46,908 bases of DNA, taken from positions 1-46,908 of the IMG/VR virus record IMGVR_UViG_3300042731_001176; one strand, given 5' to 3'. The notes under the pieces were generated by a model, which saw nothing but the letters and a program-made list of their open reading frames with translations, was not told where the DNA came from and ran no database searches. This document shows, piece after piece, positions 3,277-46,908 of the stretch; positions within the stretch are counted from its first letter, which is position 1; every line of letters begins with the position of its first letter. The position numbers and the translations under genes are program-made. Origin of the DNA: a virus.

Positions 3277-3305
3277 TTGACACACGGCTGTGTTTTTATT
3301 AATAT
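3277..3305 (+). promoter_or_regulatory. Consensus leaderless promoter for the HA/HTH gene
   Basis: A perfect TTGACA (3277-3282), 17-base spacer and TAATAT (3300-3305), ending six bases before ATG 3312. No Shine-Dalgarno lies between. This is one of the best sigma-70-type promoters in the window. Confidence 0.75.
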
Positions 3306-38578: not shown

Positions 38579-40045
38579 ATGGCTCAGAAATTCTTAACTA
38601 ATCTTGATCTAAATAAGAATGAGTTGCAGAATGCGAAGATTCAGAATCTTGGCACGGCTCCTGCTTCTCCTGAAGATGGTCAAGTTTACTTCGATACCGG
38701 TGATAATGCCCTTAAGGTTTATGACGGCACGTCATGGGTGAACCTTCAGGAAGGTGACATTTCTGGTGTTACTGCCGGTACTGGCCTTTCCGGTGGCGGC
38801 ACTAGCGGTGCTGTCACGATCAACCTAGCAGATACTGCTGTTTCGGCAGGCTCGTATGGTTCTGCAACCGCTATCCCTACGTTCACTGTTGACGCTCAGG
38901 GCCGCTTGACTGCTGTCAGCACTGCTTCGATTTCTACCAACCTTTCTTTTACTGACGACAACACTACTTCTGCTAGCGTGGCCCTGAATGGTGGCACGCT
39001 CAGCATTCTTGGTGGAACCGGTGTTGCCACTACCGCTAACGATTCCTCTGATTCGCTTACGGTGGCGATTGGTCAGGATGTTGGAACCACAGCCGACGTG
39101 ACGTTCAATTCGGTAACAGCCGCTTTGACAGGCAACGTAACTGGTAACGTCACAGGCAACGTAACTGGTAACGTAACGGGCGACTTGACGGGCGATGTCA
39201 CAGGCAACGTGACCGGAAACTTGACTGGTAACGTAACGGGTGATGTCACTGGTGATGTGACTGGTGATGTGACCGGTAACGTAACTGCTGGTCTGATCAG
39301 GGTTGGAGTTACAGCCAATAACGAAATTGATACCTCCAGCGGTAACCTAACTATCGACTCTGCTGGTGGCACAGTCACTGTTGACGACAACCTTGTTATT
39401 TCAGGAGACCTAACTGTCAGCGGTACCACGACTACAGTTAACACCGAGACTATTAATCTCGCAGATAACGTCATTGTTATCAACTCTAACGCTACGGGTT
39501 CTGCAACAGAAGACGGTGGTATTGAGATTGAGCGAGGAGATGACACTAACGTTACGCTTCTCTGGGATGAGTCAAACAACCGATGGACAATTGGCTCCGA
39601 GACCTTAGTCGCTGGCACGTTCATTGGTGCCTTAACGGGTAATGTTACAGGTGACGTAACGGGTGACGTAACCGGCGACTTGACCGGTACGGTTCTTACC
39701 GCTTCTCAGACTAACATTACAGGCATTGGCACGATCACTACCGGCGAATGGCAGGCAACCGATATTGCTGTTGCCCACGGCGGTACGGGTGCCTCTACTG
39801 CTGCCGGTGCTAAGACAAACCTTGGGTTTATGACTCGCTATGCGGCGACAATTGGCAATAACTCAGACACAGCCATTGCTGTAACACACAGCCTCGGCAC
39901 CGACGATGTTGTCGTGGAAGTCTACGACGCTTCCACGAAAGAAACTGTTATCTGCGACGTTGACCGCACAAGCGCTAATGAGGTCACGTTGACGTTCTCC
40001 TCAGCCCCAGACACTAACGCTCTCCGGGTCGTTATCATTGGCTGA
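38579..40045 (+). CDS. Tail fibre with NVTG tetrapeptide repeats
   Basis: 488 residues. The start (FLTNLDLNKNELQNAKIQNLG, SPEDGQVYFDTGDNALKVYDG) is a common fibre attachment module. A central run of G-N/D-V/L-T tetrapeptides at about 180-238 and a shorter one at about 350-370 predict beta-solenoid shafts. Between them lies the module DLTVSGTTTTVNTETI-(x)-IEIERGDDTNVTLLWDESNNRW, shared with the fibres at 16383 and 41957. The C-terminal beta domain (TAIAVTHSLGTDDVVVEVYD) probably caps the trimer or binds the receptor. Confidence 0.75.
   Translation: MAQKFLTNLDLNKNELQNAKIQNLGTAPASPEDGQVYFDTGDNALKVYDGTSWVNLQEGDISGVTAGTGLSGGGTSGAVTINLADTAVSAGSYGSATAIPTFTVDAQGRLTAVSTASISTNLSFTDDNTTSASVALNGGTLSILGGTGVATTANDSSDSLTVAIGQDVGTTADVTFNSVTAALTGNVTGNVTGNVTGNVTGDLTGDVTGNVTGNLTGNVTGDVTGDVTGDVTGNVTAGLIRVGVTANNEIDTSSGNLTIDSAGGTVTVDDNLVISGDLTVSGTTTTVNTETINLADNVIVINSNATGSATEDGGIEIERGDDTNVTLLWDESNNRWTIGSETLVAGTFIGALTGNVTGDVTGDVTGDLTGTVLTASQTNITGIGTITTGEWQATDIAVAHGGTGASTAAGAKTNLGFMTRYAATIGNNSDTAIAVTHSLGTDDVVVEVYDASTKETVICDVDRTSANEVTLTFSSAPDTNALRVVIIG
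39118..39291 (+). repeat. G[N/D]VTG-type tandem 12-bp repeats
   Basis: About 14 consecutive 12-base units encoding G-N-V-T or G-D-V/L-T. Codons vary between units, so the array is kept by selection on the protein as well as by duplication. Similar arrays occur at 42624-42795 and 42955-43190. Confidence 0.85.
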
Positions 40046-40241: not shown

Positions 40242-41957
40242 GTGGCAAGAAAATTCAAAACTCCTATAACTATTGATGAGTTGGGGTCTGCTTCTTCGCA
40301 GGCTCTCGCCGCTAATGTGGATGGTGATTCACAGAATCGTATCAATATTGATGCGGGCGGTAAGATTACTTGGGGTTCTGGTTCTGCCACTGGTGACACG
40401 ACACTTTACAGGTCGGCTGCGGATACGCTGAAGACCGACGATGCTTTTACTGCCACGTCTTTGGCTGTTACTGGTCAGTTTACGTTTCCTACGTCGGATG
40501 GTTCTGCGGATCAGGTTATTACAACTAATGGTTCTGGTACGTTAACTTGGTCTGATGTTGTTGCGAATGCTACGGTGTCTGATACGGCTCCGTCTTCTCC
40601 TTCTACTGGTCAGATTTGGTATGAGTCTGATACTGGTAAGACGTTTGTGTATTACGATTCGTATTGGATTGAGGTTGGCGCTTCGCCGCCTGCGTCTCCT
40701 TTTATTACGGATTTGGATGAGGATACGAAGATTCAGGTTGAGGAATCTGCGGATGAGGATAAGATTCGGTTTGATACTGCTGGTTCGGAGCGGATGATTA
40801 TTGATGCTTCTGGCAATGTCGGTATCGGCACCAGCAGCCCAGAAACACCGCTGAACATTGTTACGACCAATAAACTTGGCGCTACATTCACGGGCACAAC
40901 CGATGGTGAAGGCGTGCGTGTTGACCAGTCAAACTACACGTCTGGTAACTATGTTTCGCTGATTGAGTCTTCGCATCAAGACGATCAGACTGCGCCGCAC
41001 GTTCGCATTGGTGCAATGTTTGACGGCGGTGGTTCTCACCTTGCGTTTGGCACAAGTAACTCGTATGCTAGCGGCATCACGAACACCGCTATGTTCATTG
41101 ACGAAACGGGCAATGTCGGTATCGGTACAACTAGCCCATCAACATCTGCTCCATACGAAGATTACATACTAACTCTTGGGGGAGGTGGCTGGTACACCTT
41201 CGACACCATGAGTATGGTTAACGGTCCCTCCAGTACCGGAGTTAACTCCAATGATCCCGGTATTTTGCTCAACAGTGTTGCCATGAATACTTCGTCTTGG
41301 GCTACTCCCGGTCTCTACTTCACCTCAACTGACGGTCAGTTTACGACAGAGAGTCCCAAATACCTTGCCGCCATCGTGGGTCAGGCAACTTCAACATATA
41401 ACGACGATGGTGACGCTGGAATGAACATCAACTTCCGTCTGACTGGCAATAATCAAGGAACAAGCAACCTGCTATACGCTACATCGTATGGTTACAACAT
41501 GACAGCCACTTCATTTTACCACTTTACCGACAATACGGCGTCTCTGGGGTTGAGCAGCCTGCGCTGGTCAGTGGTGTACGCCGCCTCTGGCTCCATCAAT
41601 ACTTCAGATATTAGAGATAAGACTGATGTTGCTGACCTTGATTACGGTTTGGATTTTGTTAATAACCTCCGCCCTGTCAAATACCGTTACGCTGACAGAG
41701 ACGCTGAGATTGAGGGTGTTCGTACACATATGGGGTTTATCGCTCAGGAGGTTAGGTCTGTTCTGGGTGACGACGCATCAAGTCGTGGTCTGTGGACAAG
41801 TTCTGAGTTTGAGAAGACAGAGTTCATTGACGATGACGATAATCCTGTCTACTCAAATGCGGATAGACAGGGACTGCGCTATGAAGAGATAATCGCCCCT
41901 ATAGTGAAAGCCATTCAAGAGTTGACTGCTCGTATTGAAACATTGGAGGCCGGATAA
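40242..41957 (+). CDS. Tail fibre with C-terminal S74 intramolecular chaperone
   Basis: 571 residues from a GTG start. The N-terminal module (FKTPITIDELGSASSQALAAN) leads to a beta shaft with GQIWYESDTGKTFVYYDSYW and two SGNVGIGTSSP/TGNVGIGTTSP units (about 190 and 288). Residues about 450-571 are a peptidase S74 chaperone: NTSDIRDKTDV, LDFVNNLRPVKYRYADRDA, GFIAQEVRSVLG, and YEEIIAPIVKAIQELTARIETLE. It helps trimerise the fibre and is then cleaved off. The next gene starts in its stop codon (TAATG), with GGAGG just before, so they are coupled. Confidence 0.8.
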   Translation: MARKFKTPITIDELGSASSQALAANVDGDSQNRINIDAGGKITWGSGSATGDTTLYRSAADTLKTDDAFTATSLAVTGQFTFPTSDGSADQVITTNGSGTLTWSDVVANATVSDTAPSSPSTGQIWYESDTGKTFVYYDSYWIEVGASPPASPFITDLDEDTKIQVEESADEDKIRFDTAGSERMIIDASGNVGIGTSSPETPLNIVTTNKLGATFTGTTDGEGVRVDQSNYTSGNYVSLIESSHQDDQTAPHVRIGAMFDGGGSHLAFGTSNSYASGITNTAMFIDETGNVGIGTTSPSTSAPYEDYILTLGGGGWYTFDTMSMVNGPSSTGVNSNDPGILLNSVAMNTSSWATPGLYFTSTDGQFTTESPKYLAAIVGQATSTYNDDGDAGMNINFRLTGNNQGTSNLLYATSYGYNMTATSFYHFTDNTASLGLSSLRWSVVYAASGSINTSDIRDKTDVADLDYGLDFVNNLRPVKYRYADRDAEIEGVRTHMGFIAQEVRSVLGDDASSRGLWTSSEFEKTEFIDDDDNPVYSNADRQGLRYEEIIAPIVKAIQELTARIETLEAG

Positions 41958-44734
41958 TGGCTATTGATTTCCCAGATTCCCCATCCGTAAACGACACCCA
42001 CACAGTCAGCAACCGCACATGGCAATGGAACGGAACATACTGGTCTATCGTGGTCAGTAACGCTTCTGGGACTGTTGCGACAACAGACTACGTGGATTCA
42101 ACTGTTGAAACTGGTGTGCGTTGGAACGAGGCTGTAGACTTAGCGACTGCGGCTGTGCTTCCTAATTCTCCCACGTATGACAATGGTTCTTCTGGAGTTG
42201 GCGCTACTCTGACGGCTGGGTCCAATGCCCGTATTGTTGTTGACGGTGTGAATGGTACGGCTGGTGATAGGGTGCTTGTCAAGAATCAGGCGGCTGCTGC
42301 TCAGAACGGTATTTACACTGTTACCACTCAGGGTGATGGTTCGACTGCTTATGTGTTGACTCGTGCAACCGATAATGATACTAGTTTGTATGCTGGCGAT
42401 GCTACGTGGGTTTTGGGCGGTTCTGATAATGCTAATCAGGGTTTTATTCTCACGTCTGAGGGTACTGGTACTGGTGAGGTTCATACGCTTGGTTCTGATT
42501 CTTTAACTTACACTCAGTTTTCTGGTGTGAGTTCTGTTACTGCTGGCACGAATTTGTCGAAGACTGGTAACACGATTAATCTTGATGCTTCTTTGACTGG
42601 TTTGTCGGCTGTTACGTCTACTGCGTTTACTGGTGATTTGACTGGCGATGTGACAGGTAATTTGACTGGTAATGTGACCGGCGATGTAACTGGTAATGTG
42701 ACCGGTAACCTCACAGGTAATGTGACAGGCGATGTAACTGGTGACTTGACTGGCAATGTGACAGGTAATGTGACTGGTGATGTTACAGGTACAGCAGATG
42801 TTGCGACGAGCGTTACTGTTACCGCTAACAACACTACGAACGAAACAGTTTATGTTGCTTTTGTTGACGGGGACACAGGCACTCAGGGTATTGAAACTGA
42901 CACAGGGTTGACCTACAATCCTAGTACTGGAGTTATTGGCACTACTTCTGTGACGGGCAATCTCACCGGTAATGTGACTGGCAATGTGACCGGAGATGTT
43001 ACAGGTGACTTGACCGGTAACGTGACCGGTAATGTGACTGGCAATATTACTGGTAATGTGACGGGTGATGTGACGGGTGCCGTGACTGGAAACGTTACAG
43101 GGAACCTGACTGGTGATGTCACTGGCGACTTAAATGGTGATGTTACAGGCAACGTGACTGGTAACGTCACCGGAGATTTAACTGGTGACGTTTATGCGTC
43201 TAACGGAACGAGTAAGATTTTAGAGAACGGTGCTGACGGTACAGATGCTCAACTTACGGGCAGTGTTGTCGGTGATGTTACTGGCGATGTGACAGGAAAC
43301 GTCACATCTTCTGGAACTTCTACGTTCTCGGGCACAGTGAACCTTAACGGCGCTACTGTGTCAAATGCGGCGTTCAACTTGACTGGTGATTTGACAGGCA
43401 CGGCTGACACTGCAACGGTTGCCACGAATGTTACGGCCACAGCCAACAACTCTACAGATGAGACTGTTTATCTTACTTTTGTGGATGGCGCTACAGGCTC
43501 TCAAGGTATTGAGACGGACACGGGTCTATCGTACAATCCTAGCACGGGCGTGTTAACGACTACTTCTGTTACAGGCAACTTGACTGGGGATGTTACTTCA
43601 GGGAACATTCAAGTTGGTGTAACAGGCGATAACGAGATTGACACTTCGTCGGGTAACCTTACGCTTGATTCTGCTGGCGGCACAGTAGCGATTGATGATA
43701 ATGCTACGATTGCTGGCGATTTGACGTTAACTTCTACGGACGCAGGTTCGTCAGCCGCCCCTATTATTGACCTTTACCGCAACTCTGCTTCTCCTGCTGC
43801 CGCCGACTATCTTGGACAGATTCAGTATTCAGGTGAGAACTCAAACGGCGGAACAGAAATTTACGCTAAGGTAACTGGTAAAATTACAGACCCGACACAC
43901 ACTTCTGAAGATGGGTTGATTGAGACAGCCATCAAGGGTGCAGGGTCGTTCACTATTGTTAGCCGACAAAGGCACGACGAACTTCAACTCATAAATGGTG
44001 TTGGCTTGTCTGTGGCCGGTGACGTGACTATCTCAGGAAACCTAACTGTTGATGGCACCACGACTACGGTAAACTCCACAACGATTACCGTGGATGATAA
44101 AAACATTGAGTTAGGTTCTGTTGCTAGCCCCGATGACACAACTGCTGATGGTGGCGGTATCACACTTAAGGGCGCAACAGATAAAACCTTTAACTGGGTG
44201 GATGCTACGGATTCGTGGACCTCATCAGAACACATTGACCTTGCTTCAGGTAAAGCATTCTACATTAACAATACTTCTGTACTGTCGGCTTCGGCACTTG
44301 GTACGGCTGTTGCAGTTTCGCTGCTGTCAACTACTGCCTCTTCTTCAGAAGGCCGCATTGCTTGGGATTCCACGAATGATAAGATTATTGTTGGCGATGG
44401 TTCTACTCAACGTGAGTTTGCTTCGTCTACTTTGAAGACGAATGCACGGACTGCGAGTTATACGCTTGTTTTGGCTGATAAAGATAAGTTGGTTGAGATG
44501 GGTGTCGGTTCGGCTAATACGTTGACTGTTCCTCCTAACTCTTCTGTTGCTTATCCTGTCGGTACTCAGATTACTGTTTTACAGACTGGTGCTGGTCAGA
44601 CGACTCTTACTCCGGGTTCGGGTGTTACTGTTAACGGTACTCCGGGCCTTAAGTTGCGGGACCAGTGGTCTTCTGCTACACTAATCAAGAGGGGCACAGA
44701 TACTTGGGTTGCTGTGGGTGACCTTTCCGACTGA
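41957..44734 (+). CDS. Long tail fibre with multiple NVTG repeat arrays
   Basis: 925 residues. The start PDSPSVNDTHTVSNRTWQWNG and WNGTYWSIV is a standard fibre module. An Ala/Val-rich head domain follows (VDLATAAVLPNSPTY, GTAGDRVLVKNQAAAAQNGIYTV), matching a knob-like module found in many phage fibres. At least two long G[N/D][V/L]T arrays (about 223-280 and 333-412) alternate with domains that repeat each other (ETVYVAFVDGDTGTQGIETDTG, ETVYLTFVDGATGSQGIETDTG). This shows internal duplication. The C-terminal 90 residues (TASYTLVLADKDKLVEMGVG) form a common tip domain. Confidence 0.75.
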   Translation: MAIDFPDSPSVNDTHTVSNRTWQWNGTYWSIVVSNASGTVATTDYVDSTVETGVRWNEAVDLATAAVLPNSPTYDNGSSGVGATLTAGSNARIVVDGVNGTAGDRVLVKNQAAAAQNGIYTVTTQGDGSTAYVLTRATDNDTSLYAGDATWVLGGSDNANQGFILTSEGTGTGEVHTLGSDSLTYTQFSGVSSVTAGTNLSKTGNTINLDASLTGLSAVTSTAFTGDLTGDVTGNLTGNVTGDVTGNVTGNLTGNVTGDVTGDLTGNVTGNVTGDVTGTADVATSVTVTANNTTNETVYVAFVDGDTGTQGIETDTGLTYNPSTGVIGTTSVTGNLTGNVTGNVTGDVTGDLTGNVTGNVTGNITGNVTGDVTGAVTGNVTGNLTGDVTGDLNGDVTGNVTGNVTGDLTGDVYASNGTSKILENGADGTDAQLTGSVVGDVTGDVTGNVTSSGTSTFSGTVNLNGATVSNAAFNLTGDLTGTADTATVATNVTATANNSTDETVYLTFVDGATGSQGIETDTGLSYNPSTGVLTTTSVTGNLTGDVTSGNIQVGVTGDNEIDTSSGNLTLDSAGGTVAIDDNATIAGDLTLTSTDAGSSAAPIIDLYRNSASPAAADYLGQIQYSGENSNGGTEIYAKVTGKITDPTHTSEDGLIETAIKGAGSFTIVSRQRHDELQLINGVGLSVAGDVTISGNLTVDGTTTTVNSTTITVDDKNIELGSVASPDDTTADGGGITLKGATDKTFNWVDATDSWTSSEHIDLASGKAFYINNTSVLSASALGTAVAVSLLSTTASSSEGRIAWDSTNDKIIVGDGSTQREFASSTLKTNARTASYTLVLADKDKLVEMGVGSANTLTVPPNSSVAYPVGTQITVLQTGAGQTTLTPGSGVTVNGTPGLKLRDQWSSATLIKRGTDTWVAVGDLSD
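42624..43190 (+). repeat. Two arrays of 12-bp G[N/D][V/L]TG repeats
   Basis: Arrays at about 42624-42795 and 42955-43190 made of 12-base units. They are separated by a 160-base spacer whose encoded domain recurs at about 43420-43570. Confidence 0.8.
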
Positions 44735-44745
44735 GGTGTGTAGGC

Positions 44746-45765
44746 ATGGCTATAAATAAAGATGTAGGACAAGGTGGCAAGTTACCTGAAAGTTCTGTAA
44801 CTACAACGCCGTCCACGTCTGGCGGGGGTACTCCCCTAATTGGTACGTCTTCTAATACGGTAGCATTTGGCGTTACCCCGTCATACACTGGTAAAGAAAA
44901 CACGGCAGACGTTCGGGCGTGGACGAATCCTAATGGTCCCGCTAACGCCGACAAGGCGGGTAAGGGTGGCCCGTCTACTAGTTCTCCGGGTGGGGCGAAT
45001 GTCTCCCAAGGATCAGAACAAACTTGTACGTTTGATATTGTTACGAGCGACACGTCCCCCGAAGATGAGGTTCGTGCAGGTTTTGCGTACAAGTTTATGC
45101 GTTCTACCACAGCCGCAGATGGAACTGTGGAGACTGAAGAAATTGGCGATTTCATGCCAGTCCGTCAGCCTAGCACGATGAACACTATTAGCGCTACTGA
45201 TGGTGATGATGCTTCAACTACTGTTACGTGGACGGCTCACGCTATTGGGGACTTTGGGGCGTCTGGTGACGCTTCGGATTATTCCGATGAAGGCTACGCT
45301 AGATACATCACGTTTCAAGCCACCCCTACGGGTGGGGGTTCTACGCAGCAAGCAATCGTAACGAATCAGCCTACGTCTTCGTCTAAGGTTCTTACAGGCT
45401 TGACTAACGGCACTGAGTATAGTATCCGGGCGAGACTGAGCAACACTCATCTTATCGGGGACTGGTCAAATAGTGTCATTATTACGCCTGTCGCTCCACC
45501 CTACTTCCCTCCGTTCTTTCCACCGTTTTTCCCTCCGTTTTTCCCTCCGTTCTTCCCTCCTTACTTCCCGCCTTTCTTCCCTCCGTTCTTTCCTCCTTAC
45601 TTCCCTCCGTTCTTTCCGCCGTTCTTCCCTCCTTACTTCCCTCCGTTCTTCCCGCCCTTCTTTCCTCCCTATTTCCCGCCGTTCTTCCCGCCTTTCTTCC
45701 CGCCATTTTTCCCTCCATTCTTCCCCCCATTCTTCCCTCCTTACTTCCCGCCAGCGTTCAAGTAA
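44746..45765 (+). CDS. Fibronectin III tail protein ending in 22 PP[F/Y]F repeats
   Basis: 339 residues. Residues 1 to about 140 are a Gly/Ser/Thr-rich beta region. Residues about 143-248 form a fibronectin III domain (STTVTWTAHAIGDF, SKVLTGLTNGTEYSIRARLSN). Residues 251-338 are 22 uninterrupted tetrapeptides: 15 PPFF, six PPYF and a final PPAF. Tyr appears every 12 residues in the middle of the array. Half the array is proline, so it should form a stiff polyproline II-type rod with a greasy aromatic surface. Proline codons (CCT, CCG, CCC, CCA) are mixed. No known phage fibre motif matches. The next gene is a prolyl hydroxylase-like enzyme, an obvious candidate modifier. Confidence 0.85.
   Translation: MAINKDVGQGGKLPESSVTTTPSTSGGGTPLIGTSSNTVAFGVTPSYTGKENTADVRAWTNPNGPANADKAGKGGPSTSSPGGANVSQGSEQTCTFDIVTSDTSPEDEVRAGFAYKFMRSTTAADGTVETEEIGDFMPVRQPSTMNTISATDGDDASTTVTWTAHAIGDFGASGDASDYSDEGYARYITFQATPTGGGSTQQAIVTNQPTSSSKVLTGLTNGTEYSIRARLSNTHLIGDWSNSVIITPVAPPYFPPFFPPFFPPFFPPFFPPYFPPFFPPFFPPYFPPFFPPFFPPYFPPFFPPFFPPYFPPFFPPFFPPFFPPFFPPFFPPYFPPAFK
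45496..45759 (+). repeat. 22 tandem 12-bp repeats encoding PP[F/Y]F
   Basis: 264 bases of 12-base units (CCN CCN TTY/TAC TTY), pyrimidine-rich on the + strand. Synonymous changes are spread through the array while the amino-acid pattern is exact, so the protein sequence is under selection. Confidence 0.9.
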
Positions 45766-45768
45766 GCG

Positions 45769-45797
45769 TTGACGGTACGGGAAGTGTGCTGTAGAAT
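45769..45797 (+). promoter_or_regulatory. Leaderless promoter for the prolyl hydroxylase-like gene
   Basis: TTGACG (45769-45774), 17-base spacer and TAGAAT (45792-45797), ending six bases before ATG 45804. No Shine-Dalgarno. It lies directly after the PP[F/Y]F gene stop. Confidence 0.7.
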
Positions 45798-45803
45798 ATC
45801 GGT

Positions 45804-46442
45804 ATGGAAGAAGTTTCGATTATACCTTCGGGCTACTACGGGGACAGTTCCGACAACATCGTTGTCTTTGAGAACTTTATCGACCCGGAAGATTTAGCGG
45901 TAGTTCAGGCATTCCTACCCACGATTGACGAATGGGAGAACGGAAAAGAGACTGAATACGACGAGAATGGTGTTTGTATTTATGACGCTACCTACTGGAA
46001 CGACCGTATGTGTAGTGGAGAAATTATTGGGCGAAAAAATCCTGCCGTTTACCAAACAATTGATAAATACATTCAGAAGATGGCCGGTAAAGTCGAAGAG
46101 TTCTTCAAAGTTAAGGTAACGTCTCGGCCTCCAGTTTTGATGCGGTGGTTTGAAGGAATAGAACAGCAACCGCACGCAGACAAAGAGTTGAACGACGGAA
46201 GCCCCAACCCGTTCCCCACCTATGATCTGAATTCTTTGATTTACTACAACGACGACTTCACAGGGGGCGAACTGTACTTCCCTCAGCACGACATTCAGAT
46301 TACACCCAAACCGGGATTGGCAGTGATGTTCGTGGGTGACCGAAATTATCTGCATGGTGTCCGTACAGTTACTAGCGGTGAGCGGTGGACAACTCCTTCG
46401 TTTTATACCGTGGTTGAAAACTTGAACGAGGAATACTTGTGA
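45804..46442 (+). CDS. 2-oxoglutarate/Fe(II) oxygenase, prolyl 4-hydroxylase-like
   Basis: 212 residues. The double-stranded beta-helix carries the iron triad: QPHADKE gives His124 and Asp126, and NYLHGVRTVTSGERWT gives His184. Arg194, ten residues later, is the expected 2-oxoglutarate ligand. LNSLIYYNDDFTGGELYF and ITPKPGLAVMF are the conserved strands of the P4H/PiuC-type family. The enzyme uses oxygen and 2-oxoglutarate to hydroxylate a substrate, commonly protein proline. Relatives are frequent in marine phages with unknown targets. Here the preceding gene product is half proline over 88 residues, making it the leading candidate substrate. It has its own leaderless promoter. Confidence 0.88.
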   Translation: MEEVSIIPSGYYGDSSDNIVVFENFIDPEDLAVVQAFLPTIDEWENGKETEYDENGVCIYDATYWNDRMCSGEIIGRKNPAVYQTIDKYIQKMAGKVEEFFKVKVTSRPPVLMRWFEGIEQQPHADKELNDGSPNPFPTYDLNSLIYYNDDFTGGELYFPQHDIQITPKPGLAVMFVGDRNYLHGVRTVTSGERWTTPSFYTVVENLNEEYL

Positions 46443-46908
46443 AAGAACGAGATGGCGTAGTCATTGTGCCTGATTTTTTATCTCCAGAGACTGTGGAACT
46501 GTACACGGAGGAGATAAGCAAGTTACCTCGGCGTGACATTCAAGATCATTTGTACGACAAGTTTATTCAGTTGGGTGAGAGCGCTGTCCTGCGTCCACTG
46601 ATGGACGGATTAAACCTAAAAGTTAGAGAGTTTATTGAGAACTACTATTCGTGTGGCGTGGGGCAAGAAGAGTTAGCATCGCTAGTTAGTGCGCTTCCCG
46701 GCTGGGAGTTACAGTTACACGCCGATACATTTGAGGACACGTCACTAAACTTAGACACCTACGCAGGCTACCCTTCCCGTGACATCTCCACGCTTCTTTA
46801 TTTTAACAATCACGGAAGTGACTTTACCGGGGGCGATTTGTTTATGCCCAATCAAGACCTGTTCATTTTTCCTAAGGCTGGTATGCTGGTCGCATTTCCG
46901 ACAAGCGA
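46439..46908 (+). CDS. Second 2-oxoglutarate/Fe(II) oxygenase (partial, runs off the window)
   Basis: 156 codons are visible from GTG 46439, which overlaps the stop of the first oxygenase (GTGA), to the window end. WELQLHADTF gives His94 and Asp96 of the iron site; ISTLLYFNNHGSDFTGGDLFM and IFPKAGMLVAFPT are the same strands as in the first enzyme. The second His and the 2-oxoglutarate Arg lie beyond the edge. Overall similarity between the two is moderate, suggesting an old duplication or different substrates. The pair is translated together. Confidence 0.82.
   Translation, partial: MKERDGVVIVPDFLSPETVELYTEEISKLPRRDIQDHLYDKFIQLGESAVLRPLMDGLNLKVREFIENYYSCGVGQEELASLVSALPGWELQLHADTFEDTSLNLDTYAGYPSRDISTLLYFNNHGSDFTGGDLFMPNQDLFIFPKAGMLVAFPTS

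Follow-up and report, generated by a model that had tools for sequence, protein, structure and literature searches.

Among the closest described counterparts of the oxygenase considered here, OX1, is the prolyl 4-hydroxylase vCPH of PBCV-1 (5c5t, 5c5u). Both are virus-encoded 2-oxoglutarate (2OG) enzymes of about 200 aa, a prolyl hydroxylase in PBCV-1 and a predicted one here, and vCPH is the best fold match of OX1. However, PBCV-1 is a eukaryotic algal virus, vCPH is encoded by a single gene rather than within a fixed multi-oxygenase block, and the identity is about 16%. We know of no PP[FY]F array adjacent to the vCPH gene. The PBCV-1 enzyme is described in a 1999 paper, 'Evidence for 4-hydroxyproline in viral proteins', quoted here as cited in PMC9301287.

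Hydroxylation of proline in long repetitive structural proteins would be the feature shared with P3H1, the best profile match of OX1, and with the collagen prolyl 4-hydroxylases (C-P4H). The substrate of these enzymes is Gly-X-Y, whereas the PP[FY]F array contains no glycine and hence no Gly-X-Y pattern, though PPGFF[AS] tracts at other loci do contain glycine. Another fold match is CrP4H (2jig, 3gze) of the plant and algal extensin type. The substrate of extensin-type enzymes is a secreted rod protein with repeats of contiguous proline, an SPPPP motif and arabinosylation; to our knowledge, these enzymes are not encoded in a dedicated operon. A virus that modifies its own repetitive fibre-like protein is exemplified by Mimivirus and its collagen lysyl hydroxylase, where the residue is lysine, the substrate is collagen, and the virus is a eukaryotic giant virus.

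The 2OG-Fe(II) or 'P4HA' auxiliary genes of cyanophages and Baltic Sea viruses belong to the same superfamily as OX1. However, they represent other subfamilies with no link to an array, have been given roles in host metabolism or repair, and have no described fibre-array partner. Phage P4H-like genes are abundant, and their role 'remains cryptic' (PMC9301287). Phage S-SCSM1 has 24 copies of 2OG genes, with an assigned role in host metabolism (PMC9602691), and cyanophage 2OG genes have been assigned to DNA repair (PMC2984593). Viral prolyl hydroxylation in PBCV-1 and the abundance of phage P4H-like genes are thus already known. What appears to be new is a block of dedicated oxygenases linked to a proline-aromatic fibre array: in the open-access journal literature searched we found no earlier description of such a block, nor of hydroxyproline in connection with a tail fibre.

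The window analysed here is a viral DNA stretch of 46,908 nucleotides, at the end of which an array gene is followed by oxygenase genes. Our main reading, with a probability of roughly 0.6, is that this is part of a fibre-tailoring module of aquatic phages, in which OX1 and companion oxygenases hydroxylate the array. We infer the array as the substrate, proline as the residue, and all effects on the virion.

The array protein and neighbouring fibre genes

The candidate features are listed in the table. The window tail sheath is closest to those of Gordonia and Arthrobacter phages (32-36% identity). The phage is therefore a myovirus, and its host probably an actinobacterium. NVTGD/LTGN-type repeats were observed in fibre genes nearby (window positions 39128-39287, 42629-42791 and 42949-43191), and a TDTWVxxGDLxx motif is common to several fibre C-termini across phages.

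Candidate features at the end of the window
Feature	Coordinates	Strand	Basis
Fibre protein with self-cleaving S74 chaperone domain (late structural context)	40242..41957	+	PF13884, 3.1e-15
NVTGD-type repeat fibre protein with TDTWVAVGDLSD as its C-terminus, immediately upstream of the array gene	41957..44734	+	ORF
Array protein, proposed substrate (putative fibre/adhesin with C-terminal Pro-aromatic rod)	44746..45765	+	ORF, 339 aa
PP[FY]F array: 21 exact units, residues 251-334, then PPAFK	45496..45747	+	Sequence, codon pattern
Promoter-like TTGACG-17-TAGAAT, 6 nt before the ox1 ATG	45769..45797	+	Consensus match and conservation
ox1, 2OG/Fe(II) oxygenase, subfamily OX1, prolyl-hydroxylase-like	45804..46442	+	PF13640, 1.6e-7, above cut-off
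ox2, second 2OG/Fe(II) oxygenase	46439..46908 (contig end)	+	PF13640, 2.7e-5, just under cut-off

The preliminary description reported 22 exact PP[F/Y]F repeats (residues 251-338). The run is uninterrupted, but the count had to be lowered by one, as unit 22 (residues 335-338) reads PPAF. Within the array, codon positions 1 and 2 are invariant save for the F/Y switch, while the third positions of proline codons take all four bases. This pattern means that the array is selected at the protein level, and that the run is not a product of young DNA slippage.

The N-terminal 249 residues of the array protein have no relative among 50,697 phage records, and no cultured relatives of the protein were found. 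Residues 148-245 give a weak fn3 match (E 0.0015, under the cut-off). Together with the position after fibre genes and the existence of an S74-fibre relative with an array, this match suggests that the product may be a tail-type fibre or adhesin.

In the latter relative (L036:1085-1771), the array lies directly ahead of a self-cleaving S74 domain (above the cut-off). Elsewhere, arrays lie ahead of Hint/intein-like domains (L066:3043-5565, L087:3560-6478, L112:7696-8331, L055:2128-3858; weak matches, below the cut-off). Self-removal of the S74 or Hint/intein-like domain would make the array the C-terminal tip. As the array is C-terminal in the window, precedes S74 in L036 and perhaps precedes Hint/intein-like domains in other loci, a terminal position is suggested.

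Variant PPGFF[AS] tracts precede the same oxygenase block in L390, L395, L353, L365 and L405; they contain Pro-Gly, as collagen P4H substrates do.

The arrays are nearly restricted to viruses, with 4 stretches in 84,980 species genomes versus at least 120 in viral contigs. Three of these four are long arrays in GTDB MAGs (L408, L409, L411), and two of them, L408 and L409, adjoin HADHG and OX1 genes. The latter two are probably viral contigs binned into MAGs.

The oxygenase genes and the candidate promoter

The ox1 gene starts 38 nt past the array ORF, and the GTG start of ox2 overlaps the ox1 stop. The latter gene is a paralogue of ox1 (43% identity over 65 aa). Two oxygenases directly after the array had been proposed earlier; the first is intact, whereas the window copy of the second is cut by the contig end, and full-length copies are found in relatives, e.g. 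contig L123.

The iron and 2-oxoglutarate ligands of ox1, said at the outset to be all in place, are H124, D126, H184 and R194, and they are invariant in 48 OX1 orthologues with 38-64% identity to ox1. Also retained in these orthologues are W65, R68, W115, K127, N135, F137, Y140, Y147, N149, P198 and F200. The AlphaFold model of ox1 (pLDDT 93.5, pTM 0.89) has a prolyl-hydroxylase fold. The ligands, the profile and the modelled double-stranded beta-helix fold all place ox1 in the 2OG/Fe(II) oxygenase superfamily (PF13640).

Among solved structures, the OX1 profile is closest to P3H1 (4.8e-8), followed by a B. anthracis-type P4H (2.7e-6). The fold search of the PDB is led by PBCV-1 vCPH, P3H1, algal CrP4H, B. 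anthracis P4H and PHD2. In viruses, the fold matches are 2OG proteins from uncultured phages, and the top one carries the annotation 'procollagen-proline 3-dioxygenase'. By both profile and modelled fold, the nearest solved relatives of ox1 are thus prolyl hydroxylases, and hydroxylation of proline is predicted. TM-scores against prolyl hydroxylases are about 0.5-0.65, and the fold matches also include other protein hydroxylases, PiuC and LH3, so the fold class is the same but the fold does not prove the substrate class.

The target may instead be another residue. The oxygenases could act on the array protein or nearby fibres at Tyr/Phe, Asp/Asn, Lys or Arg, the array being a passive rod in the same cassette. 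LH3 is a lysyl hydroxylase, other neighbouring fibres are conserved too, and the 8-11 diverged oxygenases found in some records exceed the need of one simple proline target. The array also lacks the X-Pro-Gly context of collagen P4H, a point against the main reading. On the other hand, OX1 and the array are what the differing gene orders have in common, and the prolines are retained in all arrays, which differ in F, Y, W, H and spacing. We consider modification of the fibres that spares the array prolines unlikely, and prefer hydroxylation of array prolines by OX1.

The ox1 gene was originally described as having its own promoter. The single consensus match found in the region is at the chance level (1.9 expected). 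However, in an alignment of ten loci of the window's lineage, TTGAC and TAGAAT never change, whereas the spacer varies, and this conservation speaks for the promoter. The gap of 6 nt between the candidate promoter and the ATG suggests a leaderless or nearly leaderless ox1 message. Leaderless messages are common in actinobacteria.

Linkage of the OX1 subfamily to proline-aromatic arrays

Four samples of viral loci were drawn, with the array alone, a random 14-mer, a general 2OG motif or only the OX1 profile as the selection criterion; the last sample is blind to the array. The samples consist of the matches listed, the loci share ancestry, and the subfamilies (from our own clustering) and the tract definition are ours. 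The array-blind OX1 set represents the nearer half of the family, at about 57-65% identity. Generic proline-rich 30-mers were dropped as a tract definition, as they occur in 19/120 random loci in any frame.

A proline-aromatic array was observed in all 30 array-blind OX1 loci whose flanks reach at least 4 kb on each side (25/25 after deduplication), among the matches listed. No array was observed in 66 loci of other 2OG subfamilies (motif scan without OX1 and HADHG, at least 2 kb of flank), nor in 120 random viral loci. The preliminary description had named P4H homologues equally common in relatives without the array as an outcome that would speak against it; this is not what is seen. In the 60 array-positive loci of the array-blind sample, the distance to the array is 0.14-4.3 kb (median 1.2 kb), with 25 arrays upstream on the same strand and 35 downstream on the opposite strand. 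The linkage of OX1 to the array is thus specific to the subfamily and survives gene rearrangement.

Other samples agree with this. Because an oxygenase HMM of our own, trained on array loci, could be biased, PF13640 was applied to whole records: it finds oxygenases in 45/50 array-bearing viral records (median about 7) versus 0/44 random records, with blocks of up to 8-11 diverged oxygenases per record. Within 2 kb of the array, oxygenases lie only downstream at 28 loci and only upstream at one (p=1e-7), and on neither side at six. Of the pure arrays ending in PPxFK, 12 are followed by at least 4.5 kb of sequence, and OX1 or HADHG is present within 5 kb of all 12. In the general 2OG sample, a strict array is present in 11/18 records with at least five oxygenase copies versus 2/23 records with fewer. 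A test of uniform placement within 12 array-positive records is weak (p=0.013), as oxygenases fill much of these records; hence we rely on the direction and subfamily tests.

There are exceptions on both sides. The distant OX1-like singletons L317, L345 and L385 have no array nearby and are true or unclear negatives, and the arrays at L011, L061 and L070 have no oxygenase within reach. Several of the seemingly array-less OX1/HADHG loci are contigs ending early (L300, L323, L336 and others); L351 retains the Hint-like end of the upstream protein, and L331 has a PPVT repeat instead.

The 2OG cluster x30, a different subfamily, occurs with PPFF arrays or with PPVT and PTPT repeats (L331:3964-4482; L069:2330-3772; L013, L020, L055, L404).

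The search for cultured relatives yielded only distant oxygenase matches, nearly all from cyanophages and single-cell marine viruses, and eight such records, when checked, contained no proline-aromatic array. In the cultured Synechococcus phage S-SCSM1 (L412:6081-7346), a short tail-fibre gene, which contains a long low-complexity insert of RQP/PFNFRA, has 2OG oxygenase genes on both sides. This is possibly the same logic with another repeat.

The linkage could result from location alone, both genes lying at the late end of the structural block in related aquatic phages without any functional tie. Common ancestry of the loci, the richness of IMG/VR in aquatic samples and the many 2OG genes known in aquatic phages (PMC9602691) would be in line with this. 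However, two different arrangements both hold the pair within 4.3 kb, and neither other phage 2OG families nor cyanophage records rich in 2OG genes have such an array. This explanation is very improbable.

Another possibility is that the oxygenases are host-directed auxiliary enzymes acting on surface glycans or lipids, nucleotides or the 2-oxoglutarate pool, and adjoin the array as parts of a shared mobile cassette for adhesion or host interaction. The published assignments of cyanophage 2OG genes to host metabolism (PMC9602691) and DNA repair (PMC2984593) are of this kind, and TauD, sulfotransferase-like, methyltransferase-like and GSHPx-like genes adjoin the block. We find it unlikely, as the linkage is limited to one subfamily (25/25 vs 0/66), the pair is kept through strand changes and sited at the end of the fibre genes, and no AlkB-type protein occurs among the 50 best PDB fold matches of ox1.

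The idea with which the analysis began, that the first oxygenase serves the proline array, is thus well supported, if indirectly, by the subfamily-specific linkage that survives rearrangement and by the fold of the prolyl-hydroxylase type.

The oxygenase block and its possible role

Contig L123 overlaps the window end at 3305/3313 bases and then extends past it. Beyond the window it contains the complete ox2, a third oxygenase of the HADHG type, DUF6065, a small gene, a glutathione-peroxidase-like (GSHPx-like) gene, and others. The pair in the window forms the margin of a more extensive conserved module of OX1, OX2, a HADHG-type oxygenase, DUF6065 and a GSHPx-like protein. In other lineages the order is array, HADHG (1-2 copies), OX1, and more oxygenases (clusters c17, c45, c36, c23). 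Among 146 loci, the module partners are DUF6065 (115), GSHPx-like (46), TauD (25) and sulfotransferase-like genes (20), and methyltransferase-like genes are also among the neighbours. The sulfotransferase-like label is our own reading of the sequences, which have no match in Pfam.

DUF6065 (PF19541; L123:4280-5005) is the most constant partner that is neither an oxygenase nor a fibre protein. The fold search with its model gave a weak dUTPase-like match (E 3e-4), from which we draw no functional reading; no cultured relatives of DUF6065 were found, nor any mention of it within the literature scope given above. The GSHPx-like gene, of the thioredoxin fold (L123:5313-5927 and 45 other loci), lies repeatedly within the oxygenase block.

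Under the main reading, hydroxylation of the array by OX1 and its companions, the tail-type protein would end in a stiff proline-aromatic rod, and a PPFF rod without modification is expected to be extremely hydrophobic. OX1 would hydroxylate the rod, most likely on proline, while the virion proteins are made, drawing O2, Fe(II) and 2-oxoglutarate from the host. The companion oxygenases may take other positions or residues during virion assembly. The hydroxyls would make the PPFF rod more soluble, stiffer and capable of bonds with the host surface, so that host binding would be tuned or created. Where the block includes sulfotransferase-like genes, they could be decorated further.

A stronger version is that the block is a dedicated O2-dependent multi-enzyme operon which turns the PP[FY]F tip into a hydroxyproline-rich rod, each paralogue having its own residue or position, so that virion maturation and host binding would hang on O2, Fe(II) and 2-oxoglutarate. 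We hold this version tentatively, at somewhat less than even odds. If true, it would account for the high number of 'prolyl hydroxylase' genes in aquatic viromes.

Few accessory genes are as common in aquatic phages as those of 2OG oxygenases, whose roles have so far been placed in host metabolism or repair, or left cryptic. The pairing of OX1 with the array would give a common cryptic viral gene a substrate on the phage particle, and with so specific a substrate the question can be tested with two genes in E. coli. If the main reading is true, a phage fibre would be hydroxylated after translation, dissolved oxygen or iron would be linked to the infectivity of phages, and the modules would be a source of small prolyl hydroxylases whose repetitive substrate is defined.
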